This document shows, one piece after another, positions 23,062 to 28,155 of a DNA stretch of 47,792 bases. The translations under genes were made by a program, and so were the position numbers. Every line of letters starts with the position of its first letter. The stretch's first letter is position 1. Source of the stretch: a virus; the IMG/VR virus record IMGVR_UViG_3300030329_003466, positions 1-47,792 of that record. One strand, 5' to 3'. The notes beneath the pieces were generated by a model, which was given only the letters and a program-made list of their open reading frames with translations, was not told the DNA's origin and did not search any database.

Positions 23062-23850
23062 ATTTACCTTTCTTTTTTTATTTACATTGTGAACAGGTAG
23101 AGCTTCGCACTCAATAGCACTTATATAAAATAATTTATTTATATCTGCTCCTGTTCATATTAGAGGCGGTATCATGTCGCACCACTCAAGCAAATTTTAT
23201 AAATTCCATAGGTTTCTATAAAATTCCATGTATTTTTATGTAATGTTAATTCATACCTAAATAAAATATTTAGGCAGTACATCGGGGTTTGCACCCGTTA
23301 AGAAACTTGACACTTGACCACTTTTATAAGATTTAAAAAAAATCTTTTTATTATGTCGTCTACCAACCGCATAAATTAATAATATTAAATTTATTAGATT
23401 TAAATATTTTCTAATCTTTTTCATTTCACGACATATAATATTGATTGTATTATATTTTTAATGTTTCCGTACAGCTTATAGCTGGTCGCTCGGTGACTTT
23501 CGCCAGGCGGTCGGACTCTAAGCCCGCTATTATTTAGCACCTTTTACCCTCTCATTTTCTGAATTATTTCTAACCTATGGTTACCGTGCTTTATCAAGGC
23601 ACTAAAATAATTACTCCCTTGTTGTAGACTTTTATAAGTTAATAGCTATTTTTCAAGCTCTTCCACTCTAACGGGTAGCACTCTAAATTGCTACTAGTTT
23701 TTATACTCCAAACTTTATGCCGTCGCCTTTATTTTTTCATTGTCTCAGAAATGATAATCAATTAAAAAATTATGTTCTACTGTTTTAATTCGCAGTATTG
23801 AATAGGTTATTATTATTATTTCTATCTTAACCTGTAACTAATATAATAAA
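23062..23850. ncRNA. Long structured non-coding region, left part
   Basis: No convincing gene lies in these 790 bases. Stems visible by eye are GAACAGG/CCTGTTC (23091-23156), CCTAAAT/ATTTAGG (23256-23274), CGGG/CCCG (23283-23297), AAGATTT/AAATCTT plus a T run (23328-23349), TATGTCGT/ACGACATA (23352-23435), CAGCT/AGCTG (23472-23484), GGTG/CGCC (23492-23504, G:U only on the plus strand), GCGG/CCGC (23507-23527) and GTAGCA/TGCTAC (23675-23694). The GC-rich islands stand out from AT-rich flanks. A large RNA, several small RNAs, or an early leader are possible. The promoter for the leftward unit must lie here but I cannot fix it. Confidence 0.45.
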
Positions 23851-23860
23851 TTATAATAAC

Positions 23861-24249
23861 ATAAGTCAAGTATTATTTTTAATTATCTTTATTTATAGAC
23901 GAGAAAAAAATTTGTTTCTCTATAAAATACATCTATAAAAAATGATATTATATTATATCAATTATAAATATAATATAATCATTTAACATTAATAAAACAA
24001 GGAATAAAAAAAATATATATATATAATACATACAATAGTCAAATAAAGCTCAAAACATAGCCAAACAAGCAATATTATTATTACTAGTATGTCAATACCT
24101 AGATTTAATATATATAATTCTCATAAGGAGAAAATAAAAATAATTTAAAATAATTAAAATAATACTTGCATATTAAAAATAATGTTTGTAAGTTATAACA
24201 GGTTGAGATAGTAATTAAATAATAAATAATAAAATAAGGAATTAAAAAA
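23861..24249. other. Extremely AT-rich segment with perfect inverted repeat; origin candidate
   Basis: This stretch is almost pure A/T with short TATA runs. A perfect 10-bp inverted repeat ATATTATATT/AATATAATAT spans 23945-23954 and 23967-23976, and GAGAAA/TTTCTC lies at 23901-23920. It sits between the divergent transcription units, a usual place for a phage replication origin or paired promoters. No initiator gene is recognisable, so the origin call is positional only. Confidence 0.3.
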
Positions 24250-24420
24250 ATGAAAAGATATATAAAAGTAACATATAAGACCCAAAGTAATAAAGAAACA
24301 AATAAAATTATTGAGTCATGGAATAAATATAAAGGTGACGGTTTATTAGATTTTGCTTGTAATTGGTATGTTAAGGAATTGATAAGATGGGAGCCGTGCG
24401 ACTATAAAAACGGGAAATAA
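24250..24420 (+). CDS. Small basic protein (56 aa) in the divergent region
   Basis: ATG 24250 is preceded by AAGGAATTAAAAAA, a good ribosome site. The protein reads MKRYIKVTYKTQ, then a helical stretch, then FACNWYVKELIRW near the end, rich in Lys, Asn, Trp and Tyr. It is the only likely gene in the 1.86-kb non-coding region and is isolated from the late unit by the structured region 24440-24810. The function is unknown. Position suggests an early regulatory product. Confidence 0.6.
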   Translation: MKRYIKVTYKTQSNKETNKIIESWNKYKGDGLLDFACNWYVKELIRWEPCDYKNGK

Positions 24421-24439
24421 TCGAAATTTTCAACCAAAA

Positions 24440-24810
24440 AGCAGACCCCTGCCGACCAAAAATCGGCGGTGGGCTTGCGATAATAAACAGTCACACCCAT
24501 TCTGATATTATTTTTTGAAATTTAGGATTTAGGAAAGTATTAGTTACTTATTAGTTAACTATTGATTGCTTATTTGGTGGGTGTTTAGGATAGAGAAGTC
24601 CTACCCCTTAGATAACTAAGAGTGCTTCCTATCCTGGTATTGCTTATTCGGAGCCTGCGCAATTTGGATACCTAATAATTCATTGTTTATTAAGCGGGTA
24701 AGCTATGTTTAGTTCAATGAAACTCTAATACGGCCTTCTTACCTTCGACTGACCTGTGACTTTGTATACCCCTTGTTCTAGTCACTTAAAACACATGCGG
24801 AACAAGTTTT
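24440..24810 (+). ncRNA. Structured non-coding RNA candidate with H-type pseudoknot
   Basis: Several nested stems fit one strand. ACACCCA/TGGGTGT (24493-24499 with 24578-24584) is 7 bp. AGGATAG-a-GAAG/CTTCCTATCCT (24587-24598 with 24625-24635) encloses hairpin CTTAG-ATAA-CTAAG. GGTAT/ATACC is at 24636-24672 and GGTAAG/CTTACC at 24697-24743. In the last part GTGACT (24756-24761) pairs with AGTCAC (24780-24785), while CTTGTTC in its loop (24772-24778) pairs with GAACAAG (24800-24806), a textbook H-type pseudoknot. There is no coding potential. It lies directly upstream of the late genes. I cannot match it to a known family. Confidence 0.5.
24446..24473. terminator. GC-rich hairpin after the 56-aa gene
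   Basis: A hairpin with about seven continuous pairs (including one G:T) plus two more after a mismatch surrounds loop CCAAAAA, starting 25 bases after the stop codon. It is the most GC-rich hairpin in the region. No strong U-run follows on the plus strand, so it may be a rho-independent terminator lacking the tail, a processing site, or the first helix of the RNA described at 24440-24810. Confidence 0.4.
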
Positions 24811-24884
24811 CAACCAATATACACATGTGATGAGCTCTTAATATATATACAAATATACCTAATGTCCAAAATATTTTTTATTTT

Positions 24885-24918: not shown

Positions 24919-25662
24919 ATGGATTTTAAAACTATCAAAGGCGTTAATCACTATTTGTATGACAATCAAATTGAATTTAAAGCCTTTAAGCCAGATTCAT
25001 ACATAGTTGGTAATTGGCGTAAAGCGCAGGAAGGTGAATGGGCGTTTACAGATGACGACTATGTGTGTCAAATATTAAAAAAGGGGTTTATTTCTGGCAA
25101 ACCTTTTGTAAGGACAGTGTGTGGGACCTATTTTATTAAATCCAGTAAGAGGGAAATGCTTGGTGAGGAGGGTATTGCAGAGTGTATTTACTCTTTTGCA
25201 GGTACTTATGATGCTCAAAGGCAGTATTCTAGGAATAAAATGAATGGAAAAGAGTTCATGTTTGCTCAGTATGTAGCATCTGGCATGGAAGTTGTAGCAG
25301 CTTTTAAGAAGGCATACCCTTCTGCAAAGAGTGAAAGTTATATTAAGGCTAAATCACAGCAAATTTTAAAAAAAGAGAAGGTTCAACAAATGGTAAAAGA
25401 AGAAATTAAGAAAATCTTAGAGGATGAGGGAGTAACTCCTGAGTGGCTTATAGGAAAATATAAAGATATTGCTACTTTAGCTGAACGTGATGGAGATAAA
25501 TTACGCTCTTTAGAGTCTTTAGCTAAAATATCAGGCTTATTTGACACTGAAAAGAAACAAGAGCAGCTTACGGTTTGGGCTGGATTTAGCCCTGAGCAAA
25601 TGGAGGCTATTAAAGATGGAGAAAAAACGAAACTTATTGCACACGCAGAAAAAGAAGGGTAA
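24919..25662 (+). CDS. Terminase small subunit-like protein
   Basis: Residues about 110-210 have the terminase-2 small-subunit pattern: 'GKEFMFAQYVASGMEVVAAF', a helix-turn-helix-like 'KKAYPSAKSES', then 'LKKEKVQQMVKEEI' and a long helical region. This domain recognises phage DNA for packaging and precedes the large terminase. An extra 95-residue N-terminal domain contains a W..A..GEWAFTDDDYV segment and a VRTVCGTY segment of unknown role. The length, 247 residues, is longer than typical because of that domain. No Shine-Dalgarno site precedes the start. Confidence 0.75.
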   Translation: MDFKTIKGVNHYLYDNQIEFKAFKPDSYIVGNWRKAQEGEWAFTDDDYVCQILKKGFISGKPFVRTVCGTYFIKSSKREMLGEEGIAECIYSFAGTYDAQRQYSRNKMNGKEFMFAQYVASGMEVVAAFKKAYPSAKSESYIKAKSQQILKKEKVQQMVKEEIKKILEDEGVTPEWLIGKYKDIATLAERDGDKLRSLESLAKISGLFDTEKKQEQLTVWAGFSPEQMEAIKDGEKTKLIAHAEKEG

Positions 25663-25855: not shown

Positions 25856-26260
25856 ATGAAGTTAAAAGAAAGAATTAAAAAACATGAAGGATATGTAGGG
25901 ATGGTTTACAAGGATAGCTTAGGAATAGATACTATTGGCTATGGTTTTGCAATTAAAGACCTAGAATTAGATGAAGATATATGTGATGAAATATTAGCTA
26001 GAAAGCTAAAAGATTTAGATGTTAGAATAAAAAATAAATTTTCTTGGTTCTCATATATGCCGCCTCAAATTAAAGATGTTATTATGGAAATGTGTTATCA
26101 GTTGGGTGTCGGAGGGTTCTCAAAATTTAGAAAAACTATTGCTTTTTTGCAGGACAAGAAATGGGCAGAAGCTTCAGAAGAAATGCTTGATAGTTTATGG
26201 GCAAAACAAACTCCTAACCGAGCTAAATCATTAAGCGATATTGTTAAAGGGGTAGAATAA
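25856..26260 (+). CDS. T4-type lysozyme (GH24 endolysin)
   Basis: This 134-residue protein has catalytic residues at the same numbers as T4 lysozyme: E11 (KKHEGYVGMVYKD), D20 and T26 (DTIGYGF). The C-terminal WAKQTPNRAKSLSDI block matches the conserved QTPNRA region. It cleaves the peptidoglycan glycan backbone for host lysis or as a virion enzyme. It has no signal peptide, so it needs a holin, for which candidates occur at 37816, 39833 and 40134. Its location in the packaging cluster rather than beside the holins is unusual. The stop overlaps the next ATG (TAATG). Confidence 0.93.
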   Translation: MKLKERIKKHEGYVGMVYKDSLGIDTIGYGFAIKDLELDEDICDEILARKLKDLDVRIKNKFSWFSYMPPQIKDVIMEMCYQLGVGGFSKFRKTIAFLQDKKWAEASEEMLDSLWAKQTPNRAKSLSDIVKGVE

Positions 26261-28155
26261 TGATTATATATAAGTATGATGAAGATACAGGGCAGGTTGT
26301 TGCAGAAGATGTTGATGAAAAAGCAACTGTTAATATACCGTTTGCTGGAAGTTTTAATTATAAACATGGACAAAAAGGAGTGACTAAAACTCCTTCAAGT
26401 TCTCAAGCACCTACATGGAATTTTAATAATCCTTTGCAGAACTGGAATTTTCCTGTATTTAACAAAGCTAAACAGGTTGCAAAAGATTGGGACTTTCCTT
26501 TATTAAATATGTTAAAAAATTTAGCCCCTAAAAAAGAACCAAATAGTGTTGTAAATCAAACTAAAAAAGCTGTTCCCCCTTCTTCAGCACTAGGTTTGGC
26601 TGGCATTAAAGATGTTAATGGAGACGGGGTAGTCAATGTTCTTGATATTTTAGCTCAAAGCCAAGCTCCACAAGTTCAAGGACCGCCTGTTGCACCATCC
26701 ACAACCCCTCCTTCTTTACAAGGCTTAGGAGATATAAATGGAGATGGCGTTGTTAATGTTCTTGATGCAATATTATCTAATCAAGTCCAGGGTCCACCTG
26801 TTGCCCCGCCTGTTGCAACTGACCCAAATGATGAAGACTGGACTGGCTCAGACTTTCCACATATGGCTGACCCATTAAATGTTGGTTCTGTTCAAAGTGA
26901 GCCACAAACCTCAGAGGATTGGACTGGTTCGGATTTCCCACATATAGCTGACCCAGTTTATAGTCAATCGCCTGAAGTTGTACAAGCACCTGAACAACAA
27001 CAATATAATATTACTGGAGGTCTTGGGGAGGTTAATTTTGGAGTTTCGTATGAGATTGAGATTGATGGAGAAATGAAGTTATTTAACTGGGGAGAAGGCC
27101 CTATGGCTACTGGACAAATGTCTTCTAAAGATGTTTATAATATGGTGAATCAAACTCCAGAATCTACAGAATTACAAGACTCTCTTCTTACTAGTCCGCT
27201 TTTTGGTCTTACTCCTAAAAAAAAAGATGAATTATTAAATCTAGATGAACCTCAACAAGTAGACAGTACTGATTACGGTCTATTTCAGATAAATGATTAC
27301 TGGCATGGCGAAGAAGCTCAAGATTCTATATGGAATAAATATGTTCATCCAAAAGATATGTCTCCAATAGAAAATATCGAGTATGCTAAAAAATTATATG
27401 ATAGAGAAGGTTGGGATGTTTGGTCATCTTATAAAAACAATTCTTATAAGCAATTTTTAGATTGGTCAGATGAAGATTATAAAAAATCTGGAGTATCACC
27501 TATGGATTTAACAAGGATTGATATGATGTTTCCTGACCCAGAAGAAAATAAAATAGCAAAAGCTATTATGATGGCTGAATCTGGTGGTAACAGAAAAGCT
27601 ATAAATTATAACATGAGTCAAAAAGACTCTTCTTTAAAGTTTGAAAAAAGTAATAAAGATGGAATCAAAACAGTTTCTTGGGGTTATTATTTAGATGATA
27701 ATGATAAAAAAATAAAGCATGGCTCTCATGAAAATTGGTATCAGGACGGAACTAAACGTATAGATGGTCAATGGGAAGACGGTAATAGAGTAGGTTCTTG
27801 GAGAGAATACGACAAAAATGGAAACTTAAAAAAAGTAACTGAGTATGACGATAAAGGTAATGAAAAGAACGTAACTCATTATAACCCAGATGGTTCTATA
27901 AGAGATTTAGAAAAAGAAATAGCAGATAGGGAATGGAAAAATAGAGAAAACCTCATGGAGACAGGTGGTATGGGTGGTGGTATAAGAATTGATTTAGCCA
28001 AACAGTCTGATGAAGAATTAACTAAATTATTGGATGATATTCAAAGGGCTGAAGAAGTGGGTGGCTTGAGCGGCATGGCTAGGAATTCTTTCATTAAGCA
28101 ATATCAAAATGAAATTCAAATTAGAAAAGATGCTGGTAGGTGGACAGGCAAATAA
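26260..28155 (+). CDS. Mosaic protein: dockerin pair, permuted lysozyme-like domain, MORN-like repeats (631 aa)
   Basis: Domains in order: Pro/Asn-rich leader; two dockerin-type calcium loops, DVNGDGVVNVLD at 118-129 and DINGDGVVNVLD at 158-169; two copies of DWTGSDFPH(M/I)ADP near 193 and 220; and a 'LGEVNFGVSYEI..WGEGP.A' unit near 255-285 also present at 40301-40996. A lysozyme C-terminal half follows (STDYGLFQINDYWHG at 336-350, then 'IEYAKKLYDREGWDVWSSY' near 373-391). Next comes the normally N-terminal catalytic helix IAKAIMMAESGGNRKAINYN (432-451, E440), then YwqK/MORN-like 'HG..WY.DG' repeats about 465-550. It is likely a virion-associated cell-wall enzyme or adaptor. The start overlaps the lysozyme stop. 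Confidence 0.8.
   Translation: MIIYKYDEDTGQVVAEDVDEKATVNIPFAGSFNYKHGQKGVTKTPSSSQAPTWNFNNPLQNWNFPVFNKAKQVAKDWDFPLLNMLKNLAPKKEPNSVVNQTKKAVPPSSALGLAGIKDVNGDGVVNVLDILAQSQAPQVQGPPVAPSTTPPSLQGLGDINGDGVVNVLDAILSNQVQGPPVAPPVATDPNDEDWTGSDFPHMADPLNVGSVQSEPQTSEDWTGSDFPHIADPVYSQSPEVVQAPEQQQYNITGGLGEVNFGVSYEIEIDGEMKLFNWGEGPMATGQMSSKDVYNMVNQTPESTELQDSLLTSPLFGLTPKKKDELLNLDEPQQVDSTDYGLFQINDYWHGEEAQDSIWNKYVHPKDMSPIENIEYAKKLYDREGWDVWSSYKNNSYKQFLDWSDEDYKKSGVSPMDLTRIDMMFPDPEENKIAKAIMMAESGGNRKAINYNMSQKDSSLKFEKSNKDGIKTVSWGYYLDDNDKKIKHGSHENWYQDGTKRIDGQWEDGNRVGSWREYDKNGNLKKVTEYDDKGNEKNVTHYNPDGSIRDLEKEIADREWKNRENLMETGGMGGGIRIDLAKQSDEELTKLLDDIQRAEEVGGLSGMARNSFIKQYQNEIQIRKDAGRWTGK

Follow-up and report, generated by a model that had tools for sequence, protein, structure and literature searches.

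Results

Genes and features at the locus

The window analysed here, a 47,792-nucleotide stretch of viral DNA (IMG/VR record IMGVR_UViG_3300030329_003466), carries a terminase operon and, back to back with it, a conserved phage non-coding RNA gene of ~270 nt with its own leftward sigma-70-like promoter (Table 1). From 5' to 3' the RNA comprises a set of interlocked helices, repeat copy 2 (GGCUCC-R-repeat), the P1/P2 hairpin and repeat copy 1 (CUCACC-A-repeat).

Table 1. Coordinates of the RNA gene, its structural parts and the adjoining features in the window.
Feature	Position	Strand	Basis or content
Whole RNA gene	24566..24833	minus	minus-strand covariation, minus-strand promoter, profile matches in ~160 loci
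RNA promoter	24840..24869	minus	-35 TTGGAC (24864-24869), 18-nt spacer, -10 TATATT (24840-24845)
Helix I	CACATG 24792-24797 with CATGTG 24824-24829	minus	94.5% of cells paired; both-side changes in 6/7 pairs
Helix H (reported pseudoknot)	CTTGTTC 24772-24778 with GAACAAG 24800-24806	minus	329/329 cells paired; both-side changes in 4/7 pairs
Helix G	GTGACT 24756-24761 with AGTCAC 24780-24785	minus	91.7% of cells paired; both-side changes in 4/5 pairs
Helix E	ATAC 24728-24731 with GTAT 24764-24767	minus	covariation; weakest in the window itself
Helix F	24732..24754	minus	98.6% of cells paired; only GG/CC in the window
Helix D	GGTAAG 24697-24702 with CTTACC 24738-24743	minus	214/222 positions Watson-Crick in 37 distinct sequences
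Repeat copy 2	24640..24649	minus	plus strand TTGCTTATT+C before GGAGCC; minus strand GGCUCC-G-AAUAAGCAA
P1/P2 hairpin, between the two repeats	24587..24635	minus	minus-favouring fold energy; paired changes in relatives
Repeat copy 1	24566..24575	minus	plus strand TTGCTTATT+T before GGTGGG; minus strand CCCACC-A-AAUAAGCAA
Terminase small subunit (TerS) gene, divergent neighbour	24919..25662	plus	PHROG 51 (E 2.6e-10), Pfam Terminase_2
Separate conserved element, not in the RNA	24428..24540		TTTTCAACC and CACACNCATTCTRATATTATTTTT around a variable GC-rich segment; also found before TerS in relatives that have no RNA

The neighbours of the RNA are the terminase genes together with small genes that are not conserved across members. 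A few bases before the TerS ATG lies a promoter-like element (a TTGCAA-type box, ~17 nt, TATATT), seen in the window and in L010, L011, L013, L016, L018 and L326, and present in relatives that have no RNA as well; from the position of this box the terminase mRNA is probably leaderless. Between TerS and TerL (26260-28155) a 631-aa protein with dockerin type I and lysozyme-like domains is encoded, which is present in only 1 of 12 related records, at 34% identity. Among the window's proteins, none occurs in all RNA-bearing records while missing from the RNA-lacking one.

On the other side of the RNA, the GC-rich stretch of the separate conserved element takes the form of a G-run (possibly a quadruplex), a C-run or a hairpin depending on the phage (compare L013 with L014), and the element is a possible packaging, promoter or terminator site. 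The segment at 23800-24260 is very AT-rich (12-22% GC), with the cumulative GC skew reaching its minimum near 24100, and is either origin-like or simply the divergence point of two gene blocks. In some class C phages (L316, L321, L324, L334, L313, L393 and L403) a 57-aa gene (M..KG..LTKRQQNAMKRHSVHHTGNH..), absent from near relatives, lies on the minus strand between the conserved element and the RNA. In L009, L015, L027, L084, L090 and L136 a minus-strand gene of 77-89 aa begins 2-7 nt past copy 1, whose sequence (AAGGAAC) may act as its Shine-Dalgarno site.

Homologues and distribution

The plus-strand fold of 24420-24860 is unexceptional (z = -1.07), and neither the window nor 18 loci matched any Rfam 15 covariance model at gathering score, so that the question had to be settled by homologues. 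Scanning with the window's TerS yielded 19 related viral contigs, the closest of which carry the same non-coding region, while patterns built from the RNA alone (TTCGGAGCC..CTTCGACT and others) recovered many more loci and a TerS alignment scan revealed a third, more divergent class of the RNA. The conserved RNA is thus represented by ~160 loci in viral contigs, some contigs being counted under more than one locus id, and by 48 distinct sequences. All of these loci adjoin a terminase operon, and in the first set 26 of 26 distinct members directly adjoin a TerS gene; in several phages other genes, spanning 0.4-1.7 kb, separate the RNA from TerS, and in L249 and L259 it stands beside a clearly different TerS. 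The contig of L330 (G008, 47.6 kb) overlaps itself at its ends, with TerS complete at one end and its C-terminal part at the other.

Sixteen TerS-bearing loci gave no profile match to the RNA. Among these, L319 starts inside the RNA and L006 begins too near TerS to be decisive; with both set aside, ~12 relatives are really without it. The RNA-bearing phages are uncultured, their TerL and portal proteins being only ~25% identical to those of cultured phages. No homologue of the RNA was found in annotated phages, nor in cellular genomes, where the stricter pattern had no match and the looser one gave chance matches that were rejected by the profile.

Helices and covariation

Six helices, the previously reported pseudoknot among them, covary strongly. 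In alignments of 47-48 sequences, with helices E, F, G, H and I read on the minus strand, 94.8% of cells are paired, compared with 73.2% in shuffled alignments and at most 49.4% in slid ones; the covariation score is 0.555 (0.183 shuffled, at most 0.102 slid), and both sides have changed in 262 cells (90 shuffled). Helix H shows six pair types at its central position, and its homologues read CTTGTTC/GAACAAG, CTTTTAG/CTAAAAG, CTTCTAG/CTAGAAG, CTTCTTG/CAAGAAG and CTTTTTG/CAAAAAG. Helices E and F are short in the window itself; relatives have GUAAC/GUUAC, GUUAC/GUAAC, GUAGC/GCUAC and GAAUC/GAUUC at helix E, and AGC/GCU, ACGC/GCGU, GGCC/GGCC and GUCC/GGAC at helix F. MAFFT leaves helix D unaligned between classes; it was inspected in each sequence individually, and four of its pairs that are A.C on the plus strand become G.U on the minus strand.

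Along the RNA the helix sides follow one another in the order I, H, I', G, H', E, G', F, D, F', E', D', in which D crosses E and F, E crosses G, and H crosses both G and I. Helices D, E, F, G, H and I therefore form a chain of interlocked pseudoknots. The P1 region is misaligned across classes by MAFFT, and so the P1/P2 hairpin is backed by folds of single sequences and by visual reading of the sequences, with GGAUAG/CUAUCC and GGACAG/CUGUCC in relatives.

Strand and promoter

Three independent tests agree that the RNA is encoded on the minus strand. When helices D, E, H and I are read on the plus strand, they contain 20 A·C but only 2 G·U pairs, and since an A·C on the plus strand is a G·U wobble on the minus strand, pairing in the counted helices rises from 87.9% to 94.8% with the change of strand. 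A sigma-70-like promoter (TTGNNN, 16-18 nt, TANNNT) stands at a fixed place directly before helix I on the minus strand in 46 of 47 distinct loci, where shuffles predict 1.9; this comes from an anchored scan, a first, unanchored one having been uninformative for most classes. On the plus strand, promoters before repeat copy 1 show no enrichment (2 loci against 3.75 expected). The P1 hairpin region folds with a mean energy of -23.3 kcal/mol on the minus strand and -17.4 kcal/mol on the plus strand across 54 sequences. The RNA is consequently predicted to start near 24833 and to run leftward, divergent from the terminase genes, with its 3' end at or past 24566, and it is not a leader of the late genes.

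These results recast the sequence-only reading of this region, which had described a structured plus-strand RNA at 24440-24810 with an H-type pseudoknot. Both of its stems (GTGACT/AGTCAC and CTTGTTC/GAACAAG) lie exactly where it had located them, and the compensatory changes that it had proposed to look for do occur at helix H. Given the plus-strand z score, the evidence for the pseudoknot is covariation rather than energy; the pseudoknot is real but is only one fragment of a larger RNA, and the plus strand as the functional one is contradicted by the A·C and G·U counts, the promoter and the P1 fold. The proposed extent overlaps the RNA, at about 24566-24833, but its left part (24440-24540) belongs to the separate element that relatives without the RNA also have. 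Of the four further stems placed upstream, the claim was partly right: the supported set is helices D to I together with the P1/P2 hairpin. Two exact TTGCTTATT repeats, at 24566 and 24640, had been overlooked. The case illustrates that a pseudoknot spotted by eye can be assigned to the wrong strand, and that the balance of A·C and G·U mismatches settles which strand is meant.

Twin repeats

In the 3' part of the RNA a direct repeat occurs twice, once at each foot of P1; its length is 7 nt or more and mostly 8-9 nt. In the window, AAUAAGCAA occupies 24640-24648 and 24566-24574 on the minus strand, and the general form on that strand is GGCUCC-G-N8 for copy 2 and CUCACC-A-N8 for copy 1. In 27 of 27 distinct pairs, drawn from 160 instances, the two copies within a genome are identical over 7 core positions (0 of 189 positions differ), whereas between genomes they differ at a mean of 3.17 of 7 positions. 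Even between L330 and L334, which have 100% identical TerS proteins and 96% identity over the block, both copies have changed together. Just before the core the copies show a nearly constant A/G difference (T/C on the plus strand), with L290 as the exception. The repeats also have a partial consensus, being purine-rich on the minus strand and mostly ending in CAA or CUA. A 28-nt insertion lies beside copy 2 in L334 (1410-1455), with no source among the fetched loci.

For two drifting segments to stay exactly identical, they must both suit one and the same counterpart, or else the DNA of the other copy. Several explanations of this identity were tried and rejected. Specificity sites for TerS are ruled out by L330 and L334, where the TerS is identical and the repeats differ; a promoter motif, by the lack of further copies in the window; and target-site duplication from a recent insertion, by a hairpin that is in the same place in all members and by copies that remain identical. 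Pairing of the repeats with an internal complement was rejected as well: no complement was seen inside the RNAs, which makes pairing to a third strand within the RNA unlikely, and neither a third copy nor a complement was found at a conserved place in 12 phage records.

Comparison with known RNA families

Searches for established RNA families were negative. Rfam at E values up to 5 returned only sub-threshold chance matches to snoRNA, lncRNA and sRNA models, no Rfam ribozyme matched, and ARAGORN found 0 tmRNA or tRNA genes in the window and 15 loci, so that tmRNA, tRNA and the Rfam families were rejected. A 5' leader or riboswitch of the late operon would lie upstream on the same strand, and was rejected given that the RNA is on the minus strand with a divergent promoter. 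GOLLD and ROOL are large, elaborately folded orphan phage RNAs that were recognised by covariation (PMC12286853). The RNA described here resembles them in its elaborate fold, its orphan status and the way it was recognised, and differs in its length (~270 nt rather than many hundreds), its linkage to the terminase operon and its twin coevolving repeats.

Type III toxin-antitoxin RNAs of the ToxI family are phage-relevant and are built of pseudoknots and repeats. Unlike these, the present RNA has no tandem pseudoknot repeats; it consists of one entangled domain with two short repeats and no conserved toxin gene adjoins it, and this candidate was rejected. The packaging RNA of phi29 is likewise a structured phage RNA, which is needed for packaging and binds the portal. 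Our RNA shares with it the location near packaging functions, but this phage uses TerS/TerL and relatives with related TerS have no RNA, which means that the RNA is not generally required for packaging.

With regard to guide RNAs, copy 1 lies beside CCA and copy 2 beside CCG in most members, but both copies are within the RNA region. CreA works with type I CRISPR-Cas, is derived from CRISPR repeats and represses creT through a short match beside a PAM, while TldR guide RNAs consist of a scaffold followed by a short 3' guide. The published account of CreTA presents CreA as a noncanonical guide repressing the adjoining creT toxin gene (PMC8501985), and another presents the nuclease-dead, TnpB-derived TldR proteins as phage-encoded RNA-guided regulators whose targets are host flagellin genes (PMC13418256). 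A short match beside a PAM-like flank recalls the two repeat copies; in contrast to CreA, the scaffold here is pseudoknotted, no cas gene was recognised and both copies fall in the RNA region, and in contrast to TldR, no TnpB-like gene was recognised among the proteins scanned and TldR has no twin repeat.

Discussion

In this work we describe a phage RNA whose existence, strand and fold can together be held with high confidence, and from which we infer a mechanism. The most likely reading, to which we assign a probability of roughly 0.36, is that of a trans-acting RNA whose two repeats both base-pair with one common partner. The pseudoknotted 5' domain would serve as a stable scaffold and the repeats, single-stranded at the base of the P1 hairpin, would do the recognising, both binding the same partner through base pairing. 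A partner of the form 5'-N8-U-GG-3' would pair with both copies, by A-U at copy 1 and by G.U at copy 2, which would explain the nearly constant A-to-G difference between them; having no conserved third site in the phage genome, such a partner would come from the nucleic acids of the host or be an antisense transcript, and binding would sequester or mark it during infection. This base-pairing model is derived from a single rule, that the repeats match, and the same repeat pattern would arise from a protein with sequence specificity or from an action of copy 2 on copy 1. Against it stand the non-arbitrary, purine-rich composition of the repeats and the lack of the A/G difference in L290.

Next in likelihood come a common protein, self-targeting, strand transfer, a leader of leftward genes and a role for the late operon, in that order. 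It is conceivable, though unlikely, that a single sequence-specific RNA-binding protein, perhaps a dimer across P1, binds at both repeats and drifts in specificity between phages; the partial consensus, the position at hairpin feet and the invariable pairing of the copies fit such a protein, but TerS, being the same in L330 and L334 while the repeats differ, is not the one, and no other coevolving protein was found. Somewhat less probable still is RNA-guided self-targeting, in which copy 2 would be a short 3' guide past the scaffold and copy 1 its DNA target, the CCA/CCG flank difference would be PAM-like, and the adjacent site would be regulated or cut by an effector from the host or the phage, as happens with CreA at the creT promoter and with TldR guide RNAs at theirs. 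The scaffold-then-guide order, a match of only ~8-9 nt, the differing motifs next to guide and target and their concerted change all speak for this, but no window protein tracks the presence of the RNA, and the scanned proteins (a subset of the window's ORFs) include no recognised Cas, TnpB or IscB, an effector from the host being possible. P1, moreover, folds as part of the RNA, which runs on beyond the guide so proposed; in L290 the flanks do not differ, and the target has no consistent plus-strand promoter.

Strand transfer or processing, whereby a polymerase or primer from one copy realigns at the other (as a replication primer, in transcript realignment or in excision of P1), appears improbable. 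While an RNA-DNA hybrid has about the length of the match (8-9 nt), slippage is favoured by direct repeats around a hairpin and in cis only the template strand of one copy is complementary to the other, the ~160 loci include no deletion, duplication or P1-less allele, and a conserved pseudoknot domain would not be needed. We consider a cis-acting leader of downstream leftward genes quite improbable: L009, L015, L027, L084 and L136 do have the 77-89 aa gene 2-7 nt past copy 1, and in other clades a 57-aa gene follows 23-47 nt past it, but many members, the window included, have no leftward gene directly downstream, which argues against this role.

The least probable reading by our estimate, and a very improbable one, is the earlier proposal that the terminase operon has a plus-strand leader or a packaging signal here. 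That operon always adjoins the RNA, but the A·C and G·U counts, the minus-strand covariation and the minus-strand promoter contradict a plus-strand RNA or late leader, genes may intervene between the RNA and TerS, and the terminase has a promoter-like element of its own. Relatives with 53-58% identical TerS have no RNA, so that packaging with this terminase can do without it. Neither control of the late genes as a leader nor a packaging role is supported; a trans effect on late genes or packaging may exist. The further suggestion that the structure is an independent RNA is, on the other hand, supported by its own promoter, which reads away from the terminase operon.

Few orphan phage RNAs covary so densely, and this one occurs often among uncultured phages. 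It is possible, if on the doubtful side, that it represents a new class of phage RNA, a programmable one whose entangled pseudoknot serves as the scaffold for two guide-like segments, identical and fast-changing, which make its own recognition sequence reprogrammable, and which acts on host nucleic acid or on its own locus. Mutually matching segments that change between close relatives are otherwise the signature of guide RNAs, template-switch sites and recombination cores. The partner of the repeats would tell these possibilities apart and might uncover an RNA-guided or RNA-sponge strategy new for phages.
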